From NCBI GenBank assembly GCA_947579605.1, contig OX388321.1, positions 17,041,614-17,105,613 on the forward strand: 64,000 bases of DNA. Direction: 5' to 3'. This DNA comes from Athripsodes cinereus (lineage: Eukaryota > Arthropoda > Insecta > Trichoptera > Leptoceridae). The notes below the pieces were generated by a model, which searched no databases, was not told the DNA's origin, and worked only from the letters and a program-made list of their open reading frames with translations. The position numbers were made by a program, and so were the translations under genes. Every line of letters starts with the position of its first letter. The first letter of the stretch is position 1. Below are positions 19,553-63,507 of this stretch, piece after piece.

Positions 19553-20061
19553 GCGCTTCCTAAGAAGGCAGGCACGACAAAGTGCGAACAACACAGAACC
19601 TTAAGCATGATATCACACGCTTCTAAGATACTCACCAACATTATAATGAAAAGGGCGGAAAATAAAATAAACGAAACACTTTCAGAAGATCAATTTGGAT
19701 TCCGCAAGGAGACTGGTACAAGAGATGCAATCCTGAGTCTCAGACTTATTCTAGAAAAGAGAATAACAATTAATAAAAACACATATATAGCATTCATCGA
19801 CCTTGAAAAAGCATTCGATAAAGTAGAATGGGAACAACTTTTTAACACTCTAAACCAGATAGGAATGAGTTATAAAGACAGAAGAGCAATCTGGAGCTTA
19901 TACAAGAACGAAATGGCTGTGATCAAAAGCGGAGAGAGCTGCGCAGAAGCAAGGGTCGAACAAGGCGTAAGACAAGGATGCTCAATGTCGCCAGCTCTCT
20001 TTAACTGCTATATACAGCGAGCCATTGATGACCTGAGAGAAGAAATGAAGAACTGCTGGCC
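19553..20061 (+). mobile_element. LINE reverse-transcriptase fragment (5' part of split copy)
   Basis: Open frame begins LPKKAGTTKCEQHRTLSMIS and carries QFGFRKETGTRDAI, YIAFIDLEKAFDKV (RT domain A, catalytic Asp) and GVRQGCSMSPALFN (RT domain B), placing it in the fingers/palm of a LINE RT. It breaks at GGCC-GATCACGTAA (20058-20071) and the C-terminus resumes at 24832. The YxDD box and thumb are missing from both halves, so this copy was already internally deleted or lost sequence on insertion. Confidence 0.8.
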
Positions 20062-20215
20062 GATCACGTAATTTTTCCATTGTAATTGGCGGTTGTACAC
20101 TCTCGGCCGAGACCTCTCGTCATGTCTCGCCGAGACTCTCGGGCGAGGAGCGAGAGCTCGAGTGGTGGCCCTGTACACTCGCGTCACTTCAGTTGTAGTC
20201 GTGACGGCAAGGGCG

Positions 20216-23058
20216 ATGGACGTAGACGCAGTACAAGTTGCTTCCGCTGTCGCGCTATGCGCAATCAATTATTTTATGTATGCACACGCGTACCATACAA
20301 AAAGAATTAAAACGAAGTGGCGTAAGAGGAGATGGTGGATGGTTGCTATACATCGAAATAGGACCCGGTAAGTCAGTACATATATTTCTTGAAGACATTT
20401 AAAAATAGGCGTAAATTTCCAAAAAGGGGCCTATATTTATCAATTCTGCAATAAAATGAGAGTTTTAAAACAGTAAAGCTGAATTATTATGTGATTTTAA
20501 ATTACTTTTACAGGCAACTGATGGAGAAGCAGTTATCAGAATTGTTAGTAGAACCTTCTGGGCAGTTCAAAAAATTTACTCGAATGTCCCTAGCTGACTT
20601 TGAGTATTTGTTGCAAAAAGTGGAACCTATCATATCGAAAAAAAACACTCGACTTCGAGAATCTATTCCGGCAAGAACACGGCTAGCGATTACATTGCGA
20701 TTCTTGGCTTCTGGAGATAGCTTCGAGAGTCTTCATTTTCTTTTCAAGATATCCAGTTCGTTGATATCACGAATAATACCAGAGGTGTGCATGGCACTAA
20801 ATAACGTATTAAAGGATGAAATTAAGGTGAGTAGTAAAAAAATACTTTATTTTCAAATATTTTTATTTTCAATTTAAAAAACGTTTTATTCTATTATCGT
20901 GAGATTTTCGTATGTAAATTAAATTTTAATTCCGGTATCAACTTAATTTTTGGCTCTTATTGGCTGGAAAGTTTCAGATTCCAGAATCAACTTTTTATTT
21001 ATTTAATATTCACGGCCACATTGGGCCAATACAAATGCATTAATACTAAAATTACACGTAACGTACAATGGCAGTTTCTAATATAAAATATGTCAACAAA
21101 AAAGTATCGTACAATGGTAACAATTAATTAAAAATAACGGAATAAAAGAAAAGAGCAAAATGCTACATTCAATTAAAATAAGGGAATTAAAGAGTAACTA
21201 TTAATTAAGAAAAAGTGAATAAAAGAGTAACTATCGATTAAAAACAAGTGGGTAAAAGAGCTACTATTAATTAAAAACAAGTGGACAAAAAAGTAACTAT
21301 TAAGTAGGTAGTCAAAAATTTTAATTTACGTACGAAGATCTCACAGTTAGGTTCTTACTTTCTTTATAACTTTTAACTACTTTCTCATCGCATGATTAAA
21401 AGCAGTGTTTACAATATCAGTCTTAGGAGAATAAACTAATTCATCCGACAAAACTGTTATTTGGCGAGACGAAGAATGGGGTGATTCATTTATCACGTGA
21501 GATGTTTCTGGTATGTGAAGGACTGGCATGTTGTCTAATGCTCTAGTCATCATAGGTGAAGATGCTGAATATTGACGAGGCGGAACATCTGAGTATGATG
21601 AGCATGACGAATTCGACCAATAGGTAGATGAAGGGCTTGGGGAAATAAATGTATTTTTGGGCGATGGACTACATGGTGGAATGACGTTATTTCTATACAG
21701 TGGAGCATAGTCATAGGCGCCAGACCAGTTTCGCATTTTTTTTATGAACAACCCATCGATTTCATACATCATTTGCAATCGCTCATCATCACTGAGTTTT
21801 CGAAGTTTATTCGCTAATATTTTTCCATATCTATCGCAATCGTCTTCCTGTGTTTCCTTTTTATTTATGACTTTATTTAAAGTAGAGATTGCGTCTTTCA
21901 TGTGTTTGCCTGCTTCAAGTAATTCTGGTGGATGTTTTCGCCTTCGTTGTGTCGTTGGAGGATCAAGCGGTTCTGTTTCAAGTGTCGATCCAGCTGAAAA
22001 ATAAAAAAAATATTTATAAGAACACGGAGTTTATTCATTACATATGCAGTTGTTGATTGTTGAACATCACGAAATTTTAATTAAATAGTAAAAATCTAAA
22101 TAATGCGAACTATCTCACCTTCATTTGTAGCATTATTATCTTCACGTTCATTAATATCGGTATTATCATTACTGTCTTCACGTCCACTTTGAGAAAAAAG
22201 TTGACTCTGTAAAAAAACATGAAAAGTTATTAAAATGTGTTTCTTTTGTTCCAGTTGCCGTCAACTCCAGAAGCATGGCTGCATGTGGAAAATGGTTTTA
22301 AAGACAACTTTCCACGCTGTGTAGGTGCTATTGATGGAAAGCACATTGTAATGCAAAGCCCAGTATTCAGTGGATCAGAATATTTTAATTATAAAAAATG
22401 TTTTAGCATAGTCCTTTTAGCTCTTGTCGACCATGACTATAAATTCTTGTTTGCTGATATAGGAAGTCAAGGGAGGATCAGTGACGGTGGTGTGTTCCGT
22501 AATAGTTTGTTATGGCAGAAAATTTGCTCTAATGATCTTAATTTACCTCCGTCGACCCCTTTGCCAGGTTCAACAAAACCAACGTCTTATGTTTTCTTAG
22601 GAGATGGGGCATTTGCTCTTAGCACGCATGTAATGAAACCATATCCAGGTGAACACACCATAGGAACATCAAAACGTATATTTAATAACAGACTTTCATC
22701 TTCTCGAGTAATTGTAGAGAACACTTTTGGTATACTGGCATCAAAATTCAGAATTTTTAGAAAGCCTATACTATTAGATCCAGAAAAAACTTCTGCCTTA
22801 ACCATGACTTGCATATTATTGCACAATTTTCTACGTAAAAGTGAAACATCAAGGAGCATATACACGCCACCAGGAACTATGGATATTTATGATAATAATG
22901 GGGAATTGATTCAACGTGGTGCTTGGCGAGGAGATATGAATGAATTTCAAGAAACTTGTGCAATAACACCTTTGCCAAATGTAGCGCGGAGATCGCCACT
23001 TGATGCCAGACAAATTCGAGAAGAATTTACATCGTATTTTTTTAAAAATACGAATTAA
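20216..23058 (+). CDS. PIF/Harbinger transposase (DDE_Tnp_4)
   Basis: A 422-residue transposase from three exons: 20216-20367, 20514-20826 and 22255-23058 (GT/AG, phases 2 and 0). The N-terminal half has a helical DNA-binding-like region (MSLADFEYLLQKVEPIISKK, ARTRLAITLRFLASG, LISRIIPEV). The catalytic domain has GAIDGKH (Asp182), FLFADIGSQGR (Asp223) and RVIVENTFG (Glu310), the DDE set of the nuclease that cuts and rejoins the element. No stops or frameshifts, so the enzyme may be active. The long second intron (20827-22254) contains two exons of the antisense MADF gene. An upstream in-frame ATG exists within the terminal repeat; 20216 is chosen because it lies beyond the repeat arrays. Confidence 0.85.
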
Positions 23059-23491
23059 AATTACTACTGTACACTTCGTTCTATATAATAATAAAAAATG
23101 TATATGTATACAAAATAAAGATATTTACCTGATTTTCTGTATTTATTGTATTCTTGCATTTGTATAGATTACCCAAGAACGAGTTCATTAAGTCGAAGGC
23201 AAACCAAATTGGTTTGTGTACTTCTTCACATCCTGCACCAGATTGCAAAGAATTTTTAATTTTTCGTAGGTGTCCTCTGTACGTCGCCATTAAAGAGTCC
23301 TTCTTTTTCTTGAGATCGTCCACAGAGAATCCAGTTTGATCCGATATCCTAACCCAAGCGTCATGTAAACGTTTTCTGTCTTTATGAAACTTGTGATTCG
23401 GTTCCCACAATACGGGTTCCGTTTGGAATATCTCTATGAAGTTTAACTCACTTTCATTGTTCCACATATTTAATTCGTTGCTGTTCGTCAT
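21377..23491 (-). CDS. MADF/BESS-domain protein of the Harbinger element
   Basis: A 355-residue protein from three minus-strand exons: 23129-23491, 22119-22206 and 21377-21993 (GT/AG, phases 0 and 1). Residues about 18-110 form a MADF (Myb-like) domain: FIEIFQTEPVLWEPNHKFHK, AWVRISDQTGFSVDDLKKKK, KPIWFAFDLMNSFL. Further on, LRKLSDDERLQMMYEIDGLF resembles a BESS interaction motif. Animal Harbinger elements need such a partner to bring the transposase into the nucleus and to the ends. The gene overlaps the transposase on the opposite strand, with exons 2-3 inside the transposase's second intron. Intact. Confidence 0.82.
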
Positions 23492-24831
23492 ACCAAGGTA
23501 AATTTGCAGATAACTACGTTTATACACGTACCGCAAATTAGAAAAGTTGACACGTGCAGCACGGTCGCTTGCTGTTCGTGCACTGAAGCACGCGAGAGTG
23601 TACATCAATGCTCTCGCCGTTCCTCGCGAGACATGCCGAGACCCTTTGACTCGGGCACAAAAACCGACACGGGAGCGAGAGCGGACGAGTATGTCCGAGA
23701 CACCCCGAGGCGAGCCGAGAGCTACCATGTACACTCTCGCACTCGGCATGTCTCGGGGTGTCTCGGCGAGAGTGTACAGCCGGCATTATGTATTGTAACG
23801 TATTAATAATTAAGTCATAAAATTGGTATCACGTAAAGCCATAAAAGGCATTACAATTACTATTACAGGACCTTACAATCAATCTCAAGGTTAAAACATT
23901 GGTACACTCGCAGCGTAAATTACCGATACCAGCGGTCTTTTGTGCCAAACTGTGCAAAAGTAATATATTTCATGGACAACGCAAGTTGTTTAGCCAATTA
24001 CCAAAACAGAAATTCTTGATTGTGATATTAGCACATTATTGTGGAATTTGACGCGATTTCAAACTGTTTTTGGTTCACTGTATTCAAATGCGGACAATTT
24101 TGTCCCTTGGGGTGTATCGTTATTTTTATTTTTTGTTGTATGTCGGCAGGCAAGCTTTGTGCGTTTGCGCATAGAATGCTTTAGTACGCATTGGCGCCAC
24201 TTGTTGGCGGGTTGGCGGTCATTGCCGTTGTTGTCGGTTTTTTCTTCCGCAAATTCCAATTATATCACACCAACACAGAAAAAACCTACAGCCAAAATTC
24301 GGTAATATTAAATATGTAATAATTAGCCAAAACGCAAAATCATCGTCGAGTTTCACAAAAAAAATCTTTATAGAGCTTTCTTACTTTCTTCTTACGTAAG
24401 TTTTTACACGATAACACTATACACAATGTGATAACGCGAAGAATACAAAAACAACAAAAACGCAACGCCAATTCGATAATATGAATTATTTAATATTCAT
24501 TAATTGCCAACACACAAAAATAAACGTCTATCCTATTTTTTCAAGACCATTCACTCATTTGTGAGTGATTTAAGTAAAATAAACGTCGTGTTTCACTGAT
24601 AGAAGCATCTCTCGAGACGCTCCTATTAGTAATAGTAATTTTATTGCACTTCGACTATTATTAATGGTTACGTGATCGCTACATTCTAGCAAGTCCATAC
24701 AAAAAAAAACCTTGGGGTGCAATAAAATTATCAATAGCGATTTTGAAGTGTCAGATGGGCTTAGGTGATCGCAAAAACACTTTGACAGTTCAAAATCGCT
24801 ATTACTATAATAGTAACGAAGTTACGTGATC

Positions 24832-25530: not shown

Positions 25531-28500
25531 ATGAGTTTTACAAATAGCACTGTAAATTCATCATCGTTAGGTAATATTCAGCCAATTGAAAAACTTAAAT
25601 CCAGTGACAGTATATCTGATAAAATGGAGTCGAATAGTGAGGTGAATTCTAACACCGATAAACCGCAAGAAAATTCCGAAGGGGATAAGAAAGTAGACTC
25701 CAAAGAAGTTACAATGGAAACCATGAATATTAATGAAAAGTCTGCATCACCTCAAGACATTGAAGAGGCTGAGAAATATAAAACACAGGCGAATGAGTAT
25801 TTCAAAAGTAGGTACCCGAACATGTAGTTTTTTATGTTTTCTTTTACAATTAATCGTTAACTGTAAAAAATTGTATCACTGATACTTTGCCGAGTATTCC
25901 GTGTATCTATTAATATAGTTGTTTGATGATAATATTACAATGAATTCGCAAAATGTGTGAATCAATGACAGATGTTGACATAACCTCACTTTCAGATCAA
26001 AATTACTCTGAAGCAATCAAAATGTATTCCAAGAGTATAGAGCTGAACCCCTACAATGCTGTTTATTACGCAAATAGGAGTATATCATATCTGCGAACTG
26101 AATATTTTGGATACGCCCTAGAGGATGCCACTAAAGCTATAGAAATTAATAAATTTTATCTCAAGGGTTACTACAGAAGGGCAGCAGCACACATGAATTT
26201 AGGAAAATTTAAATTAGCGCTCAAAGACTTTGAATATGTAAGTATTAATTAATTTATTCAATTTTATATTGATACTTTGTATCTTTCACCAAAATTACAA
26301 ATTGGTATGAATCGCATTTTTGGCTAAACAAAACTTCTCAAGAGAAGTCTCGCTCTGTTGGATGTTTGGTAAATCATTTTTTTCAGTTATGTGTTTCTTT
26401 ATTAACTTAAAACTAATGTTAGATGTTATAAAGCACCTTTGAGATGATATCACCTTTTAATCTATGAAAGTAATCCAAATATTATTAATTAAGATAAGTA
26501 TGTCATTTTGCTCTACATCCTTTTATTTGTAAATGGGATATCTGCTATATACGGTAAAATATTTGTTGTGTCTATTTTTTATTGATTGTGTAACACAAAG
26601 TAAATCAAATAATTACATGTGTTAATTTTCAGGTCACCAAATTGGCACCAAATGATAATGATGCTAAGCTGAAATATTCAGAATGCAATAAGATTGTTAA
26701 GAAGTTAGCGTTTGAGAGAGCCATTGCTGTTGACAAACCTGAGAAGAGTATTGCAGACTCTTTAGATTTTGAATCAATGAGTAAGTGCATGGATATGTAT
26801 TATCGTTCGTCCAGTTCCGTAAGCCAACAATTCGAATTTCAAATATTCTGAGAAGTGGCGTGGTAAAGTTTTAAGACACCACGATTTTGACCAAAACCAC
26901 AAATAAATGTATACTTCTTATTTGATAAATTTTGTTTGTGGAATAGAAAAAATATTGCTTTATATATTGTTGATGGATCCATGAAACCTCCAATGTATTA
27001 ATTTTCAAAAATGAGATACTGACACCAAATTATTTGTATTGCCACACTATCAATGAAATAAGATATTCAGAAAAAGTAAATCACATATCTGCTTCTTTTT
27101 CTTTGATTTTTTTCTTGTGTCGTATCAGGTTCCTCCGAGGTTGGCAATCACTGGCAAAGGTTTCTCTGTTCTGCACAATCTTAAAAAATGATTCTGTGAA
27201 ATTTCGCAAATCATGCCTAAATTTCAATATAGATACTGTTACGTAATCACCATTAGGAGGGTACTTAAGTTTGGAAGTTTAATGAATTTGAATTTTTATA
27301 TTATTTTTGGTTATGGAATGTTTGGAAAATAATGACAGGTGGTTGTTTTGGTTTTGATAAAAAGAAAGATCTAGATAGGCTGGAAGAAAGATGTTATATA
27401 ATGTGTATATAAGAAATCTGTGTGAACTGTAATAATATGTGACGTGTATATAAATAATAGATGTTGTAATATGTATTTTAAATAAATAATAATTGTAAAT
27501 AAATAAAAACGTTTAAATAAATTGTTAATTTTCAAGATGTCATCCTTTTAATTGAATTCAGACTTTATTTTCCCTGACACAAGTTATAGAAAAACGATTT
27601 ACGTTACATTGGTGTCAGGTGTGGGGTTGTGAATCAGATATTTAAGTGCTTAGTGGAAATAAAGACTGTGTAAAATATGTCATCAAAAAAATTAACTCTA
27701 CTTGACTTGAAAGTGGTGGATCTGAAGCGCGAACTAGAAGAAAGAGACGCGGATACATCTGGAACGAAGGGTGTGCTCCAACTTCGACTAAGAAAGGTGA
27801 TGGAAGAAGCAGGTGAAGATCCGGAAACATATATCTTCGAGTTGCCTATAACCACCAGTGAGCTTTATAAAGAAATCGAAAAGAAGCTTCAAGAAAATGC
27901 TACAGCTATGAAAGAAGAAATAGAAAGGCTTCGAGAAGATTCTAGAGGAACGAAAGAAGAAATTGAAAGGAAGTTTCAAGAATATTCTGTGTCCTTTGAT
28001 GAAAGGATTAGCGAGTTAACAAAGCAGGTGAAAGTTTTGGAGAATCAGGCGCTTTCTTCAACAGCAAGAACGGATTTTGAGCAGAACACAACGGTGGACA
28101 CAGAGTTCAAGTGTGTAGAGAGTGGTGCAACTTCAATGGTGGAGCATGTGCGTAGTGATATGCCAACTTTTGATGGAAAGAACTCTTGGGAAGAGTACTT
28201 AACTTTGTTCGAAACAGTAGCTATGATAAATGGCTGGTCGATGACAAGAAAAGCATCAGTATTGAGTATATCTTTACGAGGAGATGCTTTAAGAGTCCTT
28301 CAGATGATTCCGCTTGCGGACAGACAAAACTTTAAATCTTTGGTTGAGAGACTGGAGATGCGATTTGGACAAAAGCATATGGAACAAGTTTATAGGTCAC
28401 AGTTGAAGAATCGTGTGCAGAGGCCCAATGAAACTCTACAGGAATTCGAGGCGGATGTAGCGCGTCTAGTGAGATGTGCATACCCTACAGTTTCTGATGA

Positions 28501-31500
28501 TGTATGTGAAAGTCTTGCAGTAGACAAGTTTTTGGATGGACTACGAGCAAGTGAGACACAACAAGCTATAAAACTGGCTAGACCACAAACTCTTAGGGAT
28601 GCTTTAACCCAAGCACTCGAATTTGAAGCTGTAAGACAATCCGTACGAGGTCACGCTCAATCCTGTGTGATGGAAGCTGTACAAGAAAATCAACCACTTT
28701 CAATAGAAGACGTAGTTAAGAAGGTTTTGGAGGCCTTGAAAGGAAAGAAGAGACAACTACGTTGCTGGGACTGTGGACAAATTGGACACCTGCGTAATCG
28801 GTGTCCAGGAAAACTAAAAAGGGTTGATGGAAAGGTGCAACTGTCGACCCGCATTGCCAATGCCTCGAAGAGATATGCAGATGTTGCGTCGTTCAGCGGA
28901 CAAGTCAGCAGCATGTTTATAAATGGCAAAGTAAATGGAAAGAATTTGAAACTTTTGTTGGACACTGGAGCAACAAAGACAATCATGAGACCTGATTTAG
29001 TTTGCGAAAAAAAACAAATAAAATCAACTAAATGGACATTACGGACGGCAACTGGAGTGTCGGCGTCTGTATGCGGTGAGACAGTTGCCAACTTTCACAT
29101 TGGAAGCACCATCTTCGATCATCAGGTGTTGGTGGCTGAGATAGAGGAGGAAGTTATTCTTGGAATGGATGTAATGGCGAAGTATGGATTCAAACTGGAT
29201 CTGAAGAGGCGAACTCTGAAAATTGGGGATGAAGATATTCTTATACAAGAGCATGAAGAATTCGCTACACGTGTGCTTGCGGCAGAAGTTGTTACTATTC
29301 CAAAACAAAGTGAAATGTTAGTACGAGCCTACTTAGATTGTGACATTCCAAATGGACATGTTTTAGTAGTGGAGTCCAACGCTAATACTGAAGCTGGAAA
29401 AGGAGTGTTGATTGCGAGAGTCCTGATTCAAGCTAAAAAGGATATTTTGGTCAGGCTAATGAATATCAATGACTATCCAGTGACTATCAAAGAAGGAGTT
29501 TATTTAAGTATGTGTTCATCGGTTTCGTCAGTAACATGTAGAGTGAGCGGTGGCCAAGTTTCTTCAGAGGAGGTACCAAAACACCTTGACGACTTAGTGA
29601 AGGAGGCTTGTAAGGAACTTACCAAGGAACAGAGCAAACAGATTAGATCCTTCATCGCTAGAAATCAGGATGTCTTCGAGAACCCAAGTCAACCCAAAGG
29701 AAGAACAAGTGTTGTTAGTCATCGAATAGACACAGGTGATGCAAGACCCATTCGTCAAGTACCCAGAAGATTACCTTTAGCAAAACGGGCGGAAGCAGAT
29801 CAAATTATTCAAGATATGGAACGGGACAAGGTAATAGAACCGTCAAGCAGTCCATGGTGTTCACCTGTAGTGCTGGTTAGGAAGAAGGATGGCTCAACTC
29901 GGTTCTGTGTTGATTTTCGCCAACTTAATAATGTTACTAAGAAGGACAGTTACCCTTTGTCTCGTATTGATGATACGTTGGACACATTGGCTGGCTGTAA
30001 AATCTTTTCAACGTTGGATTTGAAGAGTGGATATTGGCAGGTTGGACTGGAACCTAAGGATAGAGAGAAAACAGCATTCTCTATTGGAAGTGGATTATGG
30101 CAGTTCATTGTTATGCCGTTTGGACTTTGTAACGCTCCGGCTACTTTTGAGCGTTTAATGGAAAGCGTGCTGAGAGGATTGTCGTGGGAGACCTGTTTAG
30201 TGTACCTGGATGACATCATCGTGCTTGGAAAATGTTTTGAGGAGCACTTACGAAATTTGGAACAAGTGTTTTCACGATTGAGAGCGGCCAACTTGAAACT
30301 CAATGTTAAGAAATGTACATTGTTCCGAAGACAAGTCAACTATCTGGGTCATGTTGTCTCTGAGGAAGGAGTGGCGGTGGATCCTGAGAAGATTAGAGCT
30401 GTTCAAGACTGGCCTTCACCTAAAGACAAGCATGAAGTAAGAAGCTTTTTAGGCTTAAGCACTTACTATCGGCGATTTGTTTTGGGCTTCGCTGATATCG
30501 CTAAACCATTGACAAAACTCACAGAAGAAAGTAATGAATTTATATGGGATTCAAAATGCCAATGCGCGTTTGAAGAATTGAAGAAGGTATTGATTAATTC
30601 CCCGATTCTAAGTTATCCTCGAGCCGAAGGGAATTTTATTCTGGATACGGATGCAAGCAACGTCGGCATTGGAAGTGTACTATCTCAGGTTCAGGATGGT
30701 CAAGAACGCGTAATTGCGTACTTCAGTAAAGTTTTGTCAAGGCCGGAACGCAACTATTGTGTAACGCGAAGAGAGTTACTTGCTGTAATCAAGTCAGTTG
30801 AGCACTTCCGCAAATACCTATATGGACGGAAATTTCTTTTAAGGACAGATCATTCGGCGCTTGTATGGCTGTTACGATTCAAGAATCCTGAAGGTCAGGT
30901 TGCAAGATGGATAGAAAGATTGCAAGAATATGACTATGATTCTGAGCATCGAGCTGGACTTCGTCATAAAAATGCTGATGCACTGTCAAGGCGTCCATGT
31001 CCAGAGGATTGCCAGCATTGTAATAAAGCGGAGGAAAGGTTCGTCATGATTCGTAGAACTACAGTCATCGATAATTTTTGGCAAGATGATGAAATTCGAG
31101 CGCACCAGTTGGAAGATCCTGACCTTGGACTTTTGATGCAGTGGAAAGAAAATGATCGAAAACCTTCATGGGAAGAAATAGCTTCATGTTCACCAAATGT
31201 TAAATCATATTGGGCACAATGGCAATCCATAGTTGTGGAAAACGGGTTGTTGAAACGTATTCTGGAAAGTGAAGATGGAACACAGCAGAAACAACAGCTA
31301 TTGGTTCCAAGGAAGAGAGTTCCTGATGTCCTTAAGCTGCTTCACGATGATGTGTCTGGTGGACACTTGGGAGTTAAAAAGACTACAGAAAAGATTCGTC
31401 AGAGATTTTATTGGGTCCGTTACACTGAAGATGTAAAAGATTGGTGTAGAAGATGTGTGACTTGTGCTACTTCGAACGGACCTCAAAAACAGAGGCGTGC

Positions 31501-34500
31501 GCCAATGAGACAGTACAATGTAGGTAGTCCATTTGAAAGAATAGCCATCGACATAGCAGGACCGTTTCCCACAACTGAAAGAGGGAACAAGTATATTTTA
31601 GTAGCAATGGACTATTTTAGTAAATGGACAGAAGCCTATGCATTACCAAATCAAGAGGCTACCACTGTTGCTGAAATCTTGGTAAGAGAGCTGATAAGTC
31701 GTTTTGGAGTACCGTTGGAGCTTCATTCGGATCAAGGAAGAAATTTTGAGTCAGCCGTATTTCAGCAAGTATGTGAGATATTGGGAATTCGAAAAACGAG
31801 AACAACTGCTTTGCATCCACAGTCGGATGGAATGGTGGAGCGAATGAATCGAACATGTGGAAAATATCTGTCGAAGGCGGTGTCTGATCATCAGAAGGAT
31901 TGGGACGAATACATCCACTTGTTCTTATTGGCCTATCGTTCGGCAATTCATGAGACAACGGGACAAACACCAGCGAGTGTGATTTTTGGCCGTGAACTAC
32001 GGTTACCTTGCGACTTGCAGTATGGATCTAAGCCTGGAGAGGATCTTGTTGGAGAAGATTATGTATCGGAACTTCGAAGAAAGATGAACGACATCCATGA
32101 ACGTGTGCGGGCTAATATTCAAGTCGCTAGTGACAGGATGAAGGAAAGATATGATGTCAAAGCTGTGGAAGGAGGGTATCAAGCTGGAGATTTAGTTTGG
32201 TTGTTCAATCCTCAACGGAGACGAGGCTATTCACCGAAGCTTCAAAAATCCTGGGAAGGACCGTACGAGGTGATTAAAAGAATAAATGACGTTATTTATC
32301 GAATACGACGAAAATCAAATGGCAAGCCGAGGGTGGTACATTTCAATCGCTTAGCACCGTTTTTAGGAGACAATAAAAGTGAAGGAAACAACCCGATTGT
32401 TCAAGTCTGTAAAGTCCTAAGTGAAGAGAAGAGTTTTGAAGAATTTATGAAGACGCCTCAACGAAGAATTCATCATGGTGTCACTATCGAAGTTGAGCAA
32501 GATCTTTTTGACACTCCAGAGGATTATGTTTTGGCTCATTGCTTGGCTCAGAATGCAAAATTTACTAATGGCATAGCCAAAGTTTTCAAGAAGAAGTACG
32601 GGATATTGGAAGAGATTAAGGCCAAGAGTTTGAAAATTGGAGAAGCGGTCCATCTACAGCATGGGGAACGACATATATTTTACATGGTAAATAAAGCAAT
32701 CCCTGAAGAACAAACAGAGTATGTTCAGATGTGGCACTGTTTACAAAGTTTGCGGGATCAAATGTTACAAATGAATCTTACGAAGCTCGGCATACCAAGG
32801 ATAAGTGGCAATATGGATTGGAAAGTTGTTCGAAATATGATAGAAGAGATCTTCTGTAATACTGGAATTAATGTTTTAGTTTGTTGTTTTAATCCAGGGT
32901 ATAGTGAGAACATCAAGAAGTCTGTACCTTGTTATTTCTTCAAGACTTCACATTGCAGAGAGGATTCAGGATGCTCCTATCTTCATCCAGAGAATTCGTT
33001 CGGGACGAACTAAATTAAGAGGGAGGCAATGTTACGTAATCACCATTAGGAGGGTACTTAAGTTTGGAAGTTTAATGAATTTGAATTTTTATATTATTTT
33101 TGGTTATGGAATGTTTGGAAAATAATGACAGGTGGTTGTTTTGGTTTTGATAAAAAGAAAGATCTAGATAGGCTGGAAGAAAGATGTTATATAATGTGTA
33201 TATAAGAAATCTGTGTGAACTGTAATAATATGTGACGTGTATATAAATAATAGATGTTGTAATATGTATTTTAAATAAATAATAATTGTAAATAAATAAA
33301 AACGTTTAAATAAATTGTTAATTTTCAAGATGTCATCCTTTTAATTGAATTCAGACTTTATTTTCCCTGACACAAGTTATAGAAAAACGATTTACGTTAC
33401 AATACTATAGAATTTCTAAGACACCATAACGAATCAGACATGTAGAAAATGTCATCCAGCAAAACAGATTTTTTGATCTCCTATAAATTCTTGAGAAATA
33501 CACATGAATCCGCCGACATTATATAAATTTGGTTTCACATTGATTTAAAGAAAAAATGTTGACTTTTATTTTTACGAATTAAATCCTCCTACTGTATAGT
33601 ATATAGATTGTAATTTATTGGGGTTTTTCAGCTATTGAAGATGAGTACGATGGACCAAAATTAGAAAATGATAAAGTTACCCTTAAGTTTGTTATGGACC
33701 TAATGGAATGTTACAAACAACAGAAAAAACTTCACAGAAAGTATGCATATAAGGTAATTACATTCTTATTTTTAATATTAGAAGTTTTACTAGTCACTTC
33801 ATTATAGTGACCTAGGTTTTGACACGCAGTATCTTTTTCAAATTTCTTTTCTTTCATTTTATTGTTAATTGATATGGAGTTTCACAAAATAAATACTGAA
33901 AAAATACTCTTCTTCTTTTCGTGTCGGTCAGCAAACAATAAATAACAAAACATTTATATCTATATTACCATTCCCTCCCAGAAAGCCACGACTTCTCTTG
34001 CAGCTTCCCCCAGGTGACACTGTCTGGGAGCCATTGGGCATGTCAGGAGGTGCCCAGTGTTTTGCTCCTCTTCACGGTCACACCGTTTGCTCAGCCAAAC
34101 CCCATCTCTGAAGGTTCTTAAAATACTCTAAAACCAATGTTGTCAACTGGCAGTACTTGGTGGAAATTTGTGCTAAATTAGTAAAAATTAATCATGTTTG
34201 TATAGTACATCTGTATACCTGCTGTAGTAAATCCCTTGGAAATACCTTCTATGTAAAAGTTTTTTTTTATTTTTACTCATTTCAGTGTACCTGGGGTGGA
34301 TTTATTCAAAAACATGATTGATAATATCTATGTCAAATGTGTAGTTTCTCGTTGTCTCAGTTTAAATACTTAAAATAATAAATTGACAGTAAAGTTGAAT
34401 AAATTCTAGATACATTCACCCCCTGTTATCTAAATAATGTTATAAAGAAACGCAAGAGGTATTTTTTATATTCAAATTTAATGATTTGTTTTATATGTTC

Positions 34501-37500
34501 CAGATCCTCGTGGATATTAAAAACTACATGATGAGTTTACCATCTCTAGTTCACATTACCATTCCTGAGGAGGACAAATTTACTGTCTGCGGTGATATCC
34601 ACGGCCAGTTCTTTGACCTAATGAACATATTCACCATCAATGGTCTTCCATCTCCGACCAACCCTTATCTGTTCAACGGAGACTTTGTTGATCGGGGATC
34701 ATTTAGTGTAGAATGCATTTTCACGTTATTCAGCTTTAAACTTTTATATCCTGACCACTTTTACATGTCTAGAGGTAAATATATTTTTTTATAATGATCA
34801 TTTATTAGCAAAAATCTAGTGAACAATTGTAGTCAGTTAATTCCAGAAGTTATTAGTTGTCTGCCTTTTTAATTTTTTAATTAATTAATAAGTACATTGT
34901 ATAGTGAGATGTGAGACTAATTAAAATAAAAATCAAACTGAAAATAAAAATAAAATAAAACTAAAATCATAGTTTCAATATAATTATTAGATTATACTCA
35001 TTAATTTCTTATTTTCTTGCTGGCTTGGAGAGGACAGCTTGCATGTTTGTTGCATGCGGCTAGTCTGCTGGCTACCTCACTTGTGGGATATGCCGTGATA
35101 GTAATACTCATTTATTTTAACTTTTCAATCATTAATGTTGTCTATTTTCAGGTAATCATGAATCTTCGACGCTCAATAAATTCTATGGTTTTGAGGGTGA
35201 AGTGAAGGCTAAATATTCCGCACAGATGGCTGATTTATTCACAGAAGTCTTCAATTGGGTGCCGCTTGCTCACTGCCTTAACTATAAGGTTTTGGTGATG
35301 CACGGAGGACTGTTCTCTGAAGACAATGTCACTCTTAAGGATATTGCTGATATAGATAGAAATCGTCAGCCACCTGCCGAAGGTATTTGTATTAATCATG
35401 AATTTAAGTTTAACTCAAATACACCTGACACTTGCAGTAAGCCATATACTTGTATCGTGAAGTTCTCATGATCAGAAGTCCAAGGTTCTTCCATCAGGAT
35501 ATTGACCACCTCAATATTACAAATGATGATATATGTGTATATTGATTACTATCCCCATGGAGTTTCCAGAATAGAGCAGATAATCCATGAAAATTTATTT
35601 ATTTATTTTAATATATAATCAACAATGAGTGACATGACAGTTGTTACCTTTGCATCACTCAAAGTTCACAACACACAAAACCGTTTCACAATGATACACA
35701 CTCATACAAACAAACAATATTATCAAACAAAACATTACAGCATTTAATTCGTAAATCTATTAAAACAATTAAGTATTGAACAAACTTCATTTAAATTTGT
35801 ACAACATAATTTACACAAAAGTGGGCGAGTTCTGTCATACATACATAGGTACACGATCAAATTGAAAATGTAGCTACATTCAGACAATAACAAAAAAAAT
35901 AATTTACTTGTCCGTCCCATTCGCACCAGCATCAGCCATCCACCAATACTACATTTAACACTGCTCTCAATTTAGCAATAATGAAATATAAAGAACCTCT
36001 ATATGTCTTGTTTCTCATGACATGTATGTTTATTTTATACAATTACTGCACTGGGTACTTTACTTATGGGAGATGTTGTGATGGTATTATCAGATAGAGA
36101 GCTGTTGTCTCGATACGGTTGAAAATGTAATTTCAAATTTGTTATTGGAGAGAACTTGTTATAAAGTTAATGCCAACAATATGAACAGAATTGAACTCTG
36201 TGAGATAAATTTTGACTCATTTCTCAATGTTTTGTGTTAATTTTTCAGGAACAATGTGTGAATTACTTTGGTCCGATCCACAACCAGAGCCAGGTAGAGG
36301 CCCAAGTAAGAGAGGTGTAGGATGCCAGTTTGGTCCAGATGTTACCAAAAAATTCTTAGAACTAAACAACTTACAATACATCATCAGAAGCCACGAGGTC
36401 AAAGACAGTGGTTATGAAGTTGCTCACGATGGAAAATGTATAACTGTGTTCTCCGCGCCAAATTATTGGTAAATTTAAAATATTTATTCTTAAAAAAAAC
36501 AATTGTACAATTAATATAAGCATATATGTAAATTGGATAATCCAAGTAGGCAAACCTGTTTTAGGAGAATCCATTTAAAGTATAGTTGGCAAAATATTTT
36601 TTTTATATTTTAAATGAAAACACTTGACAAAATAGTTTTTTTTATTTTTTCAATTGAAAAGATGTGAATATGTACTTTAAATCTATTGAATGTTTTAAAG
36701 GTTAGAATTCCTTTGCAAGTGTTGTATAGGGATCTAATTTGTGACCACTTATTATTATGAGTATAACTGTCAATTTCATAAAGATAAACTGTCTGTTCCA
36801 TAAAAAATATAGTACCTATCTTAATTTTTGTGGAAAAAAATTGTCTAAATTTCTCGAAGTCTCAAGTTCAATTCCTGGCTAGGATATAAAATTTTCAAAA
36901 GAAGCATCCAGGGTTCGGAAGATGTACTGCCTCTGTAAAGTTGTGAAATATCAATGATTGCTTGGAAGAAATTTTACAACTGATAAATTTGCCTAATGTA
37001 CTGACATCTCTGTGTAGAAAAGATTAAGAAAAAAAATTGTGAACTTTCTGAATTCATGTATACCTATTATTATTCAAATCTTAACTCAATGTATCTAAAA
37101 ATTTATGCGTCTGTTTTTGTGTTATTTCAGTGATACAATGAATAATCTTGGAGCATTTATAACAATGACTGGTAAAGATGTCACACCCAAGTTCACGTCT
37201 TACAAAGCTGTGGTATGTTTATTACCCTCTTTTACCAATGAAATATTATTACATATTATTATATACTCTTGTCACTTTTTATTCTTACAACATCCTCCAA
37301 CACAACACTTAATGTAACACCCTCAATATAAACTTCTGGATATAGCAATTAAGATAAATATATTTGTATGATTTTATATCAGAATTATTAAATTCTTATT
37401 TTTCTCCGAGTGCCCACTTACATCTGTCACTCTGGTGTAAATATCAATGTCTTTGCTAGTTGAAACGATACTTCCATTCTCTAATTTTTCTCAGTCAGGA

Positions 37501-58500: not shown

Positions 58501-61500
58501 GATTTGAATTCTGCTGGTGGAGGTTCTGCATCAGCTTCTGAATCATCATCATAATATTCTCCGGTGGATTTTTGACTTACGACATCGCCGCTTGCATCAC
58601 CTGCTGAAATAGCTACATTTGTTCCTCCAAGTGAGCCACTTCCACCTCCAATCGGGCCAATATCTGTAGCTTTAATTTCTTCTTTGTGATCAGAAATCTT
58701 TCTTCTTTTGCTCTTTTTCTTCTTCGGTTGTTCTTCTCCCCCCGTATTAAGCCTTAAAAATGAAGAACATAATTTATAATAATACTTGTTCGAAGTAATT
58801 CGACATTTCACCTTCAGTAATTGTCACTTTCAAAAATACTTACTTCAGCGTCATCCATCTCTTCACACTCCTTCCAAGAGCTCCCGGTCTCCATCCCTTT
58901 CTCTGAAATATAATTTATTTATGTATCATGTGTAATTTTATTTTGGGTACATGCCTTCATTTTTTAATTATAACATTTATAAGATCTACGAGTATATGAA
59001 GAATGCACTTCACCTGGGCTAGATTCCAAAGCCAACCCATATCAGCTGGAACACCTCTAAATCCCTTTACTGATCCAACACATGGGACATGTCTATACGT
59101 ACTATCTAAAATACATACATATTTATTTATTTACTCAAACGGCTTATTACAATATAGTGTAAACTGGACATATAACAATAAATTATTATATACCTACACA
59201 AAATATTCATATACAAAAATATTCCATAGTACCTACTCAGAAATGACATTTATAAAAATTGAAATACATAAGAATAAATAATATCATTATTTAAAAGTTT
59301 CAAAACCCACAACTGAAAAAACTTATAATGTTTATGTGGAGAATATTCTCACCAGGATATTTGTCTCCAATGTTGTAAAGATATTTCTTATTATGCGTTG
59401 CTTTCTTTTTTCTTTTGGGTGTGGCTTTGCTAACATTTTCAGTCGACATTCTACGGCGGCTTTACACTTTCTCAATTAATTCACAAGGCGCACTATAAAA
59501 ACAATTTAACACTAGAATGATATCAAACTTTACTATGATTACATCAATTATACTTTTTATTCACAAGGTACACTTTTTGGTTTTGGAATTGTTATTTTTA
59601 TTGGCAAACAACATCCTTGTCAATCCTTCATAGACCAGTCGTTCTACGTCTGTCTCGTCAATTCGCTTCCCTCCTCCACAAGTTGCTTGACATTGTCCAC
59701 ATTTGGAGTGATCGGGGGGCTCAGAACAAGGGGCGTGACATGTATAACCTGGTATTGGCTCACATGCACAAGACGTCATCGCCATGGGACATCGCACATC
59801 ATTTGATATGGGTAATTGGCATAACGATTCTCTTCTTCCTATATTCTTTGAACAATCTGCATTTTTTTCTGCTGCAACTTTCGCCGTTATTTCGTATTCG
59901 TTTGGTCTTTGTAAATAATCTTTAATCATTTTAATCAACGTACATTCAGGATTCCCACATGGAAATGGTATATCACAACAACCAAATTCACTTCTTCTTT
60001 TATCTCCTGTCACAAATAATATACATTCCTCATCCAGCCCAGCAGCTTTGAGATCTTTAGATACTTTGTTTCTTCTATGTTCTGCTTCTATTTCATCTGG
60101 ATCTTTGGCCTCTAGTGTTTCATAAATTATTCCAATTGGTTTTAAATCTTCAGGAACAGTTTCCATGCCGTATGCCTTACATTTATAAGATTTATTTTGT
60201 GCTCGATTTCTAAAAACGAAGCCAAATCCTTTGTTTGTTTCTTTAAATAAGGTGATGTAAGTTTTACCCAGACATGATAATCTTATTAGTAAAGTTATTT
60301 CACCCATCCCTGATCCAGTGATTTCGCTAGTGAGTGATTCAGTTACTTTAACTGTAGTCGGATCAATATTGTAACAGCACATGTTTGCCTGGTCTATGGA
60401 GTTTACTATTTTTGGATCCCAAATAATTTTTGCCACTCCTACGCATTCTCGACGTTCCTGTTTTATGTCTGCCCATACAGATACATTCAATGGAAATAAC
60501 TCAAAAGACTGTTTCAATCCATGTGGGTTTTGAGAAAATAATAACGATGCTCCATTATTCATTCGAACTTCAAATTTAGCTAATTTTTCATTTTTATTTG
60601 GAAAAAGTATGTTAGTAGCACTTCCGGCAGGTGAATAAATACCTTCCTTTGCTAGTATTTCCGCACAATTTAATTCATTGGCTTGCTTTTCTGCTGCTGA
60701 TTTGCCTAACAATTCCAATGTTGCATTTGGAAGAAGATCATTTTTGAACTCGTCTTGACGAATTTCAAAGAAAGCGATTGTTCCAAAATCTATATTGACA
60801 GTCAGCTTAGGTTCAATAATTCGGATAGCTTCCTTGCATTGAAATTTGACATTGAGTACGTGGATTTCTAAAAAATACAAATCTTCCATTCCTGTGAACC
60901 TGCGAATGGGAGACGTCATCATTAGTCACAATTCAAAATTTAGGGATAACATTTTTTTATATATAAATAATCAATTGTTCAATCGATTGTTGCTTTTTTA
61001 TTAACTGTGCAACATGCTCCGGTAGCACAAGTCCCACTGTGGAGATAATCCGGGCAAAAGTTTCTATGATTTTCATCTTTCACACTTTTTAGCATAGCTG
61101 TTAGTCCTTCGTAAACCAGATTTTGTGCACTTGTAAAAGCACCGAGAATGTCATCCTTGTCCCTATTACAAGGCCCAGTACATTTCTTTTTGTTTGGACC
61201 AGTTGAAGCTGATGGTTCATCATCATCTCTACAAGGTCTTCCAGCTAAATAGTATCCACCACAACCAGGACATAGGACAAAATCCATTTTTCCCTCATGT
61301 AGTTGTTCGGATGATGTTCTGAATGTACAAAGTGCACCTGGTTTTCCACATGGTGTTTGCCCACAGGTACAACGTTCTTCTTTTTTAGGAACTTCTTCTT
61401 CTAGTTTCTTTTTTGGTTCACAATTTTGTCTTTTAATAGTTTCTTCTATTAATTTTACAAGATACTCAACATATCCACTTTTCTGATATGTTCTATGCAC

Positions 61501-63507
61501 ATTTTCAGTCTTACGTTTCGTACTGACGCCATATAAATTACACGATAGTGAAGTTTTACCTTCGACACTTGATCTCCCTCCAATTCTGCATAAACAGTCT
61601 TGAAATTTAGAATTAATTGATCTTCCTAATAGTGTGAACCTAACACCGAATGCAATGTCTCCGATATTGGATCCATTTGATTCACTCATTAAAGGCTCAG
61701 TTGTATGCCAAGTGCGTTGAGTGTGACTATCAGGAGTATTTTTTTCTTCCAATAACTCACAAAATTCCATATTCCAAAAAACTCTACTTTGTCCGATACA
61801 CGTTTTTTTCTCAAACTCGTTATTAGTATACACATATATCTCCATTGGAAACGTTTTGAAAATTTGTCTTAGATTGTGCGGTGTATTAGCAAAGAGTAAA
61901 GAAGCACCACATTTGAAACTTTTTTCTATAACAGTTGACACATCTGCAGTTGCTTCTTCCTCCTCACCGTATACATCATCACTGGAGTCACATTCTTTGA
62001 TCCCTCCAGGGTTAAGCATTGCTGCTTCACAAGCTGCCGTATCAACATCTTCATCATCTGTGTCATATTCCAAGATATCATTATCAAACTCATCTTGTTT
62101 TATGCCTAACGAAGCAAATTTACCAATATCAATATCGACATTCAGTTTGTTGTCTTCTGGTTCATCAAAACCCTTTGTTAGCATGCATCTAATACTTATC
62201 TTGTCAATATAGAATTCTAATAAATACAATTCTTCCATCTTATACCTGGAGGGAGACAATTCACGCTGTATTTTTACATTTGATTTACCTAATATAATAA
62301 TATAAATTTGTTTTTCATTTAAATAACTGAACACATTTTATGTTTTGATAACAGTTACGATCTGTCTTCACCGTTATCCTGTTATTTGCATTTAGACAAG
62401 TACAAAACCAAAATAATAAACAAATAATACATTGAACTTAACAAAGGCATCATGTCTTGGATACATATTATGCACATTATATTCACATATTATATTGACA
62501 GAAATATTAATATAAAACATGGAATAGCATACACACCTTTATATATTCCGTATAGATATTATAAGCAATTTAGTATTTTCTTGTGAATTATCTTATAATT
62601 TTGATTAATTAACTCGAGATTTCATTTTCCGTGACGGACATTTTTTATTTTTGTGAGTGTAAACAGTTGAAATTTCATCAAGGTTCCATCAATTCAAAAA
62701 TCACATCAATCGATTAGAAATGTTTTCACTGGCAGATTATATTAAGTAGGTTCATTAATAAAGTTGTCGGAATTTTCGATTATATCAAAAACATTTAGGT
62801 ACCTAACAAGAAATAATATTTAGATACGTACATATTATATAGTACCTAATGTTTACACATTAGGTACTAAGTATATAATTATTCCACAATATATATTTTT
62901 TTTATTTTCTGTCATACACTATAACAATTATAACAAAGAAGCTGTATATAGGTATATTAGAATTGTAATTCACACTCCAATAGTAAGCTGACTTTCGTTC
63001 AAAAATTTCGTCATAGACATTTTTTGACGAAATTTAGTGGAGTTTTTAAAGATCGTCAAAGACATGTTTTTGACGAAATTTAGAAGAGTTTTTATAGTAG
63101 GTATTATCATAATCGCGGGAACCTACGTTTACTGTTTTCAACTTTTTCTAAGTATACCAACAATATTTATGTTTCTTTTACTGTTTTCAAACTACAAACA
63201 AATAAAAAGCTCATTTTTACTTTTAAAAGATTCATAATAAGCTGAAGTGTTAAAATTCAGGATTTTTTTAGAAACCATTAACTAAAAAATATTAAACTAT
63301 AGTCATAGCCATTGAATTTCAATTTCCAGACAGAAACTCTGAAGACCCCGAATCTCCATCTATAATGGATAACATTCTTCGAATTCTGGAAGATCAAGGA
63401 ATACCCGTCCAGGATTGTATACAAAGAGCAGTATGTACCCTAGTCAAGAGATCACTAGAGACAGAGAATCCAACGAGTAGTGATAAGATTATAGATGGGA
63501 TCACCAG
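55536..63507 (+). CDS. Secreted/membrane cysteine protein, paralogue (3' end off window)
   Basis: Four plus-strand exons: 55536-55766, 56857-56931, 57219-57360, 63330-63507 (GT/AG; phases 0, 0, 1, then 2), with the last exon or exons beyond the right edge. An upstream ATG at 55524 is also in frame. Residues about 13-33 form a signal peptide (LTTVFLLLFCPTWLQA). Residues 112-134 (GALAVTFGVTMGALYIAPLV) are a membrane-like segment matching the glycine-rich hydrophobic stretch of the 44.8-kb gene. CIQRAVC (179-185) matches its CAQRITC, and the donor after exon 4 splits a codon after AG in both genes. Function unknown; DM4/12-like by analogy. Intron 3 (6 kb) houses three minus-strand genes. Confidence 0.75.
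56555..56695 (-). repeat. Double-hairpin repeat remnant in intron 1
   Basis: Reverse complement: CAGAGAACATGACATGGATG, AGTTAGTGTACTGGTTACTC, ATCACAATGCCATTATATGG; diverged. Confidence 0.45.
57927..59449 (-). CDS. Nested insect protein, K-rich N-terminus, cysteine clusters
   Basis: A 357-residue protein from four minus-strand exons: 59353-59449, 59014-59105, 58844-58902 and 57927-58752 (GT/AG; phases 1, 0, 2). The N-terminus is basic (TPKRKKKATHNKKY) and leads to RKGWRPGALGRSVKRW (64-79), then a second basic run (KKKKSKRRK), a glycine/acidic low-complexity linker, a charged helix (RLSKEKKRYEDDVRKALETA) and a cysteine cluster (CQCAYEDVYCTDLC). No signal peptide. I do not recognise the family securely; it recalls uncharacterised insect DUF4776-type proteins. 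It is the last gene of a tight three-gene minus-strand cluster inside an intron of the 55.5-kb gene. Confidence 0.75.
59561..60922 (-). CDS. Nested intronless insect protein, tandem paralogue 1
   Basis: 453 residues, no introns. The conserved core shared with the neighbour at 60979 includes MEDLYFLEIHV (12-22), VNIDFGTIAFFEIRQDEF, GASLLFSQNPHGLKQSF, SGMGEITLLIRLSCLGK and a C-terminal VYEGLTRML. The C-terminal third is cysteine-rich with paired CxxC-like groups (CGQCQATCGGG). Start at 60922 keeps the shared SPIRR segment; the methionine at residue 12 is an alternative. The stop overlaps its own polyadenylation signal (TGAATAAA, AATAAA at 59556-59561, minus). A TATA-like TATATAAAA lies in the 56-bp gap upstream. 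Family not securely recognised; DUF4788-type insect proteins are a guess. Confidence 0.78.
   Translation of the reverse strand: MMTSPIRRFTGMEDLYFLEIHVLNVKFQCKEAIRIIEPKLTVNIDFGTIAFFEIRQDEFKNDLLPNATLELLGKSAAEKQANELNCAEILAKEGIYSPAGSATNILFPNKNEKLAKFEVRMNNGASLLFSQNPHGLKQSFELFPLNVSVWADIKQERRECVGVAKIIWDPKIVNSIDQANMCCYNIDPTTVKVTESLTSEITGSGMGEITLLIRLSCLGKTYITLFKETNKGFGFVFRNRAQNKSYKCKAYGMETVPEDLKPIGIIYETLEAKDPDEIEAEHRRNKVSKDLKAAGLDEECILFVTGDKRRSEFGCCDIPFPCGNPECTLIKMIKDYLQRPNEYEITAKVAAEKNADCSKNIGRRESLCQLPISNDVRCPMAMTSCACEPIPGYTCHAPCSEPPDHSKCGQCQATCGGGKRIDETDVERLVYEGLTRMLFANKNNNSKTKKCTL
60979..62334 (-). CDS. Nested intronless insect protein, tandem paralogue 2
   Basis: 451 residues, no introns. Shares with the downstream neighbour MEELYLLEFYI (33-43), VDIDIGKFASLGIKQDEF, GASLLFANTPHNLRQIF, SNIGDIAFGVRFTLLGR and VYEGLTAML. 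An acidic insert (YDTDDEDVD, SSDDVYGEEEE) is specific to this copy. Cysteine motifs near the C-terminus (CTCGQTPCG, LCPGCGGYYLAGRPC, CTGPC) suggest metal binding. The SPSRY segment before MEEL is conserved, so translation starts upstream of residue 33; whether 62334 is the true start or an upstream exon exists is unclear. Separated from the next gene by 56 bp. Confidence 0.75.
   Translation of the reverse strand: MFSYLNEKQIYIIILGKSNVKIQRELSPSRYKMEELYLLEFYIDKISIRCMLTKGFDEPEDNKLNVDIDIGKFASLGIKQDEFDNDILEYDTDDEDVDTAACEAAMLNPGGIKECDSSDDVYGEEEEATADVSTVIEKSFKCGASLLFANTPHNLRQIFKTFPMEIYVYTNNEFEKKTCIGQSRVFWNMEFCELLEEKNTPDSHTQRTWHTTEPLMSESNGSNIGDIAFGVRFTLLGRSINSKFQDCLCRIGGRSSVEGKTSLSCNLYGVSTKRKTENVHRTYQKSGYVEYLVKLIEETIKRQNCEPKKKLEEEVPKKEERCTCGQTPCGKPGALCTFRTSSEQLHEGKMDFVLCPGCGGYYLAGRPCRDDDEPSASTGPNKKKCTGPCNRDKDDILGAFTSAQNLVYEGLTAMLKSVKDENHRNFCPDYLHSGTCATGACCTVNKKATID
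62335..63329. other. Remainder of intron 3 of the 55.5-kb gene
   Basis: Presumed promoter region for the nested cluster on the minus strand. No repeat family recognised. A 20-base phrase (ACATTTTTTGACGAAATTTAG-like) occurs twice at 63017 and 63062. Confidence 0.35.

Follow-up and report, generated by a model that had tools for sequence, protein, structure and literature searches.

In the Trichopteran Athripsodes cinereus, a Ty3/Gypsy retrotransposon carries behind its integrase what sequence comparison and a predicted fold support as a macrodomain of the TARG1/OARD1 type. The element lies in a stretch of 64,000 nucleotides (the window; GCA_947579605.1, contig OX388321.1, positions 17,041,614 to 17,105,613), and its single gag-pol open reading frame (ORF) runs uninterrupted through this C-terminal tail (27677..33013), as a first-pass annotation of the same DNA had read it. 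We class the domain as a divergent relative of TARG1, not as canonical TARG1, because its sequence departs from the published TARG1 signature. Its position is:

32489..32881, + strand: TARG1/OARD1-related macrodomain, residues 1605-1735, by homology to human TARG1/OARD1

Residues 1605-1735 matched human TARG1/OARD1 in phmmer with E=8.8e-20, by which chance resemblance is ruled out, and a two-sequence profile matched TARG1 with E=1.4e-22, bearing out the likeness that the first-pass annotation had proposed from the letters. Up to E=10, no match of the window protein to the general Macro model of Pfam was listed (the HMMER filters discard most matches above 0.1), and in the relative described below the match was weak (E=0.047, 14.1 bits versus a cutoff of 22), while TARG1 matched, and the match is therefore of the TARG1 type. 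In a predicted model of the tail (window 32441-33013), with a predicted local distance difference test score (pLDDT) of 77.8, the best match in the PDB was TARG1 by both Foldseek and VIA-align, the Foldseek outcome being the one expected beforehand.

The same arrangement occurs in a second sequence, P0002, a 242-residue ORF on a 990-base contig, which aligned to residues 1539-1774 without a gap (174/236 identical) and carries the same fusion of integrase, macrodomain and CCCH motif. Identity by part was 25/29 in the integrase tail, 22/33 in the linker, 102/140 in the macrodomain and 25/34 in the CCCH part. The extension, anticipated in related elements, is thus present in a relative, but in one other sequence only. 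The CCCH motif, zinc-finger-like and missed by the first-pass annotation, lies after the macrodomain within the last 40 residues of the polyprotein:

32930..32986, + strand: CCCH motif C1752-x7-C1760-x5-C1766-x3-H1770, from the sequence

The spacing C-x7-8-C-x5-C-x3-H is found in the window and in P0002. For the window only the Nab2-type family PF14608 was listed, below its cutoff (E=0.12, tail alone), and for P0002 PF00642 barely passed (20.9 versus 20.5 bits).

P0002 was the one relative among 17 candidates of about tail length, and none of 71 candidates for a long polyprotein with the tail passed E 0.001. Three pattern scans of viral contigs (67, 1 and 60 matches) and two of genome contigs (54 and 151 matches) gave no relative. 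The last protein search returned 3410 matches among 3697 candidates, of which the best 120 were considered, P0002 and 119 others; the named rows among the 119 listed were mostly OARD1 or TARG1 synonyms, some rows being hypothetical or unnamed, and further distant copies of the element may lie among the 3410 matches beyond these 120. For comparison of residues, the window sequence, P0002 and 58 of the 119 other listed matches (the TARG1 rows) were aligned with MAFFT; one row, P0004, has no N-terminal part, so that some columns count 57. A tree was built from the 60 rows less the short P0004, 59 in all, with no named insect row and five nameless ones; in it the two elements formed a group (100/100) whose branch is very long and set apart from the 57 other rows.

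That the module is under selection, as the first-pass annotation held, was approached through neutral simulations halted at the observed identity, with 1000 runs for each of three transition biases. At least 28 conservative replacements arose in 3, 4 and 14 of 1000 runs, and frames without a stop in 5, 8 and 15, the latter count being partly a selection effect because the database contains ORFs; both together arose in none of the 1000 runs for any bias. The outcome speaks for selection acting across the entire tail, though indirectly and from one relative.

The published pattern TKx(30,35)Px[IL]GxGxD served to set the human TARG1 numbering; in the human chain it locates T83-K84 and D125 as the paper does (PMC6397177). 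Residue 125 is called Glu in PMC7050489 and is Asp in the sequence and in PMC6397177. The counterparts of the two catalytic residues are:

32693..32695, + strand: K1673, counterpart of catalytic K84, which is Lys in 58/58 TARG1 rows
32816..32818, + strand: D1714, counterpart of catalytic D125, 41 residues from the Lys as in TARG1

None of the 58 TARG1 rows departs from K84 or D125, and both residues are retained in the window and in P0002, the window sequence reading N1672-K1673 and P1707-R-I-S-G-N-M-D1714. The aspartate, whose position the first-pass annotation called not obvious, could be assigned: D1714 on D125 was the best of eight gap placements (13.4, next 10.8), MAFFT concurred, and in P0002 the same placement again scored best (17.6 versus 14.8). 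Both elements also keep D20, L21, F22, C33, G43, I44 and P118 of TARG1. With the invariant Lys and Asp retained and the best placement putting D1714 on D125, the pocket is remodelled but probably keeps the dyad, and because of the retained dyad the domain may be an active hydrolase.

The tail, macrodomain and CCCH motif together, would travel with the integrase, to which it may stay joined or from which the element protease may free it, and would act at the copy as it arrives or integrates, removing ADP-ribose there from host proteins or the ends of nucleic acids; K1673 would be the nucleophile and D1714 would resolve the intermediate, as described for TARG1. We know of no retrotransposon enzyme that acts on the ADP-ribose mark. 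The element may benefit by undoing silencing marks set by PARP1 or a sirtuin or, alternatively, by clearing integration gaps of ADP-ribosylated proteins and ends. TARG1 strips ADP-ribose from acidic residues, from nucleic-acid ends and from thymidine in DNA, K84 being required for the last (PMC7050489, PMC8501950). In mammals, mono-ADP-ribosylation of KAP1 by SIRT6 promotes the silencing of L1 (PMC4695847), and five of the eight mobile elements that changed significantly in parp-1 mutant flies were up (PMC7712786). The chances are evenly balanced that the tail is an ADP-ribose eraser delivered with the integrase, and we favour this over a reader, a nucleic-acid-binding tail and a passenger because TARG1 removes ADP-ribose and host ADP-ribosylation acts on retrotransposons. 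The fuller account, in which a captured TARG1-type hydrolase with a remodelled pocket serves as a counter-defence that erases PARP or sirtuin ADP-ribose from incoming DNA and the new chromatin site, in an arms race between element and host, is more tentative and on balance rather doubtful; a role in countering PARP-based defence or at integration, suggested in the first-pass annotation, is what we infer.

Several observations weigh against the eraser. The pLDDT of 77.8 leans on the 58 TARG1 rows, because modelling with just the two element sequences reached only 38.7, and the margin by which D1714 wins the place of D125 in the window (13.4 versus 10.8) is modest. Both elements change S35 to A (S in 57/57 TARG1 rows) and T83 to N (57 T and 1 S in the TARG1 rows), the two residues of TARG1 that contact the distal ribose, and L47 to V. 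In both, S replaces G121 and either G or D replaces C122; at position 123 the window sequence carries N and P0002 keeps G, so that the GxG phosphate loop reads SGN and SDG, respectively. The window sequence retains H32, where P0002 has Y, the adenosine-side Y150 and L152 lack a sure counterpart, and residues 126-128 are lost in both elements, including L127 (Leu in 58/58 rows). The signature fails accordingly, with NK...PRISGNMD in the window and NK...PKISDGMD in P0002. In the fly mutants, three of the eight significantly changed elements were down, ten further rises fell short of significance, and the authors state that the derepression may be indirect (PMC7712786). The overall interpretation of the first-pass annotation is partly supported: the identity of the domain stands by sequence and predicted fold, but changes affect both the Ser and Thr that contact the ribose and the phosphate loop, and the TARG1 pattern fails.

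These same changes could suit a reader of ADP-ribose or poly(ADP-ribose) (PAR) on chromatin that steers integration from the place where chromoviruses carry their chromodomain, which we regard as unlikely. The domain is C-terminal to the integrase, macrodomains act as readers as well as erasers (PMC7050489), and a domain that keeps its predicted fold and several residues on the adenosine side, but has altered ribose contacts and phosphate loop, might bind its ligand without turning it over. Yet both elements retain the two catalytic residues, for which a pure reader has no need, G121S and G123N fall in the diphosphate-holding loop, and from G123E-mutant TARG1 RNA was competed off only poorly by PAR (PMC5928194). 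More improbable is a nucleic-acid-binding module, in which the macrodomain surface and the CCCH motif would hold element RNA or cDNA to the integrase and the ADP-ribose pocket would be largely vestigial. Net charge is -2 for the macrodomain and 0 for the tail, unlike a strong RNA binder, and such a module would not need to keep the Lys/Asp dyad, but TARG1 does bind RNA, not or not only via its pocket (PMC5928194), and a conserved CCCH motif directly follows the macrodomain. A passenger, that is, a captured host coding stretch translated as no stop precedes it and now decaying, is very doubtful, since, for all the altered pocket, the absent or weak Pfam matches of the window itself for Macro and CCCH and the finding of one relative only, the frame is open in both elements (in P0002 partly as a selection effect of the ORF database), conservative replacements exceed the neutral expectation and macrodomain identity (102/140) is above that of the linker (22/33), though below that of the integrase tail (25/29).

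Chromoviruses are Ty3/Gypsy elements with an integrase-fused chromodomain; the present element likewise adds a module to the C-terminus of its integrase, here a macrodomain, with no chromodomain listed. TARG1 (OARD1, C6orf130), of the ALC1-like class, stands alone in the listed rows (137-258 residues), in contrast to the domain fused behind the integrase, which differs further by S35A, T83N, the altered GxG loop, the three-residue loss and the added CCCH motif. If the element carries its own TARG1-type domain in this position, the role of ADP-ribose in silencing becomes testable. DarG, the antitoxin of DarTG, is bacterial, of much lower identity and conserves only the lysine of the dyad, and SCO6735 retains neither residue (PMC7050489), so the ALC1-like class tolerates catalytic change; how mechanisms differ within the class is stated there as an open question, on which a naturally occurring variant of TARG1, its pocket remodelled, would bear. 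For fish epsilon-like endogenous retroviruses, ORFs with a macro domain have been reported (Basta et al. 2009, cited in PMC4977317), likewise a retroelement lineage that acquired a macro-domain protein, but these are vertebrate retroviruses with additional ORFs, and the available text of PMC4977317 names no type of macro domain and describes no integrase fusion. Among predicted viral proteins, the matches of the tail model include Kadipiro virus VP8 (29% identity, rank 1), a cressdnavirus macro protein (28%) and Invertebrate iridescent virus 6 032R (30%), which are from mobile agents too, with a similar predicted fold and about the same identity, in unrelated replication systems. This suggests that viruses, arthropod ones included, also took up TARG1-like domains, and since viruses show similar predicted folds the present element is not the only case of a mobile agent taking up this fold. 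Among the matches listed in literature titles and abstract starts, a scope outside which fall most subscription journals and all repeat databases, no macrodomain was found in a Ty3/Gypsy element. Papers on gene transfer in Rhizophagus and on ZAP have no bearing on the fusion.

The element looks like a young and complete Ty3/Gypsy retrotransposon, because its long terminal repeats (LTRs) are identical at 372/372 positions, in line with the recent age first proposed, its ATAC flanks match, its frame is open and its motifs are present. Its parts and the flanking exons are:

25953-26252: TPR exon of protein phosphatase 5 (PP5), E=7.2e-32 to PP5
27233..27236, no strand: target-site duplication ATAC, left copy, read directly, the same 4 bases as 33402-33405
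27237..27608, + strand: 5' LTR, 372 bp, TGTTACGTAA...TTACGTTACA, 372/372 identical to the 3' LTR
27610..27627, + strand: putative primer-binding site TGGTGTCAGGTG..., from its position one base past the 5' LTR
27677..33013, + strand: gag-pol ORF read in a single frame, 1778 codons
27707..27796, + strand: SAP domain at the Gag N-terminus, residues 11-40, Pfam PF02037 E=1.1e-5, passing the cutoff
28922..29173, + strand: aspartic protease, residues 416-499, by Pfam and motif (DTGA at 429)
29876..30355, + strand: reverse transcriptase, residues 734-893, by Pfam (E=3e-35) and motif (YLDD at 843)
30629..30931, + strand: RNase H, residues 985-1085, Pfam E=1.5e-34
31304..31810, + strand: integrase H2C2 zinc-binding part (1210-1267) and core (1285-1378), Pfam E=6.9e-20 and 1e-15
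32258..32359, + strand: integrase C-terminal, GPY/F-type module, residues 1528-1561, Pfam Integrase_p58_C E=6.2e-13
33030..33401, + strand: 3' LTR, 372 bp, starting 16 nt past the gag-pol stop codon
33402..33405, no strand: target-site duplication ATAC, right copy, read directly
34486-34794: PP5 catalytic exon, E=4e-41

Membership in Ty3/Gypsy follows from the order protease, reverse transcriptase, RNase H and integrase in one pol, by Pfam and motifs (HSDQG besides DTGA and YLDD), and from a pair of TG...CA-ended LTRs with a short target-site duplication. A chromodomain at the integrase C-terminus, as would be expected of a chromovirus, was not among the 23 Pfam families listed at E<=10. Gag and Pol share one uninterrupted frame, with neither a frameshift nor an intervening stop. 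The SAP domain is a DNA-binding type module, followed in Gag by what looks like a coiled coil, and a CCHC knuckle stands between SAP and protease in the Pfam order, scoring below its cutoff with the motif present. The putative primer-binding site is presumably tRNA-Leu-like; no tRNA genes were found in the window. No second copy of the tail or of pol was found within the window at E 0.01. The element apparently lies in sense orientation within an intron of the PP5 gene (25953-34794). A false assembly join of host gene and element was considered and rejected, as the stop falls 16 nt before the 3' LTR, the LTRs and ATAC close the element, and P0002 has the same fusion.

Elsewhere in the window, a DDE_Tnp_4 transposase ORF (+ strand, 22237-23058) stands beside a MADF ORF (- strand, 23081-23749), a pair (22237-23749) that we take to be a PIF/Harbinger element, and a reverse transcriptase fragment (19607-20071; RVT_1 E=4.9e-24) has the look of a non-LTR element. 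Two adjoining minus-strand ORFs (59561-62334) resemble tandem paralogues, the first of which matches MAP10_N (E=1.1e-14).
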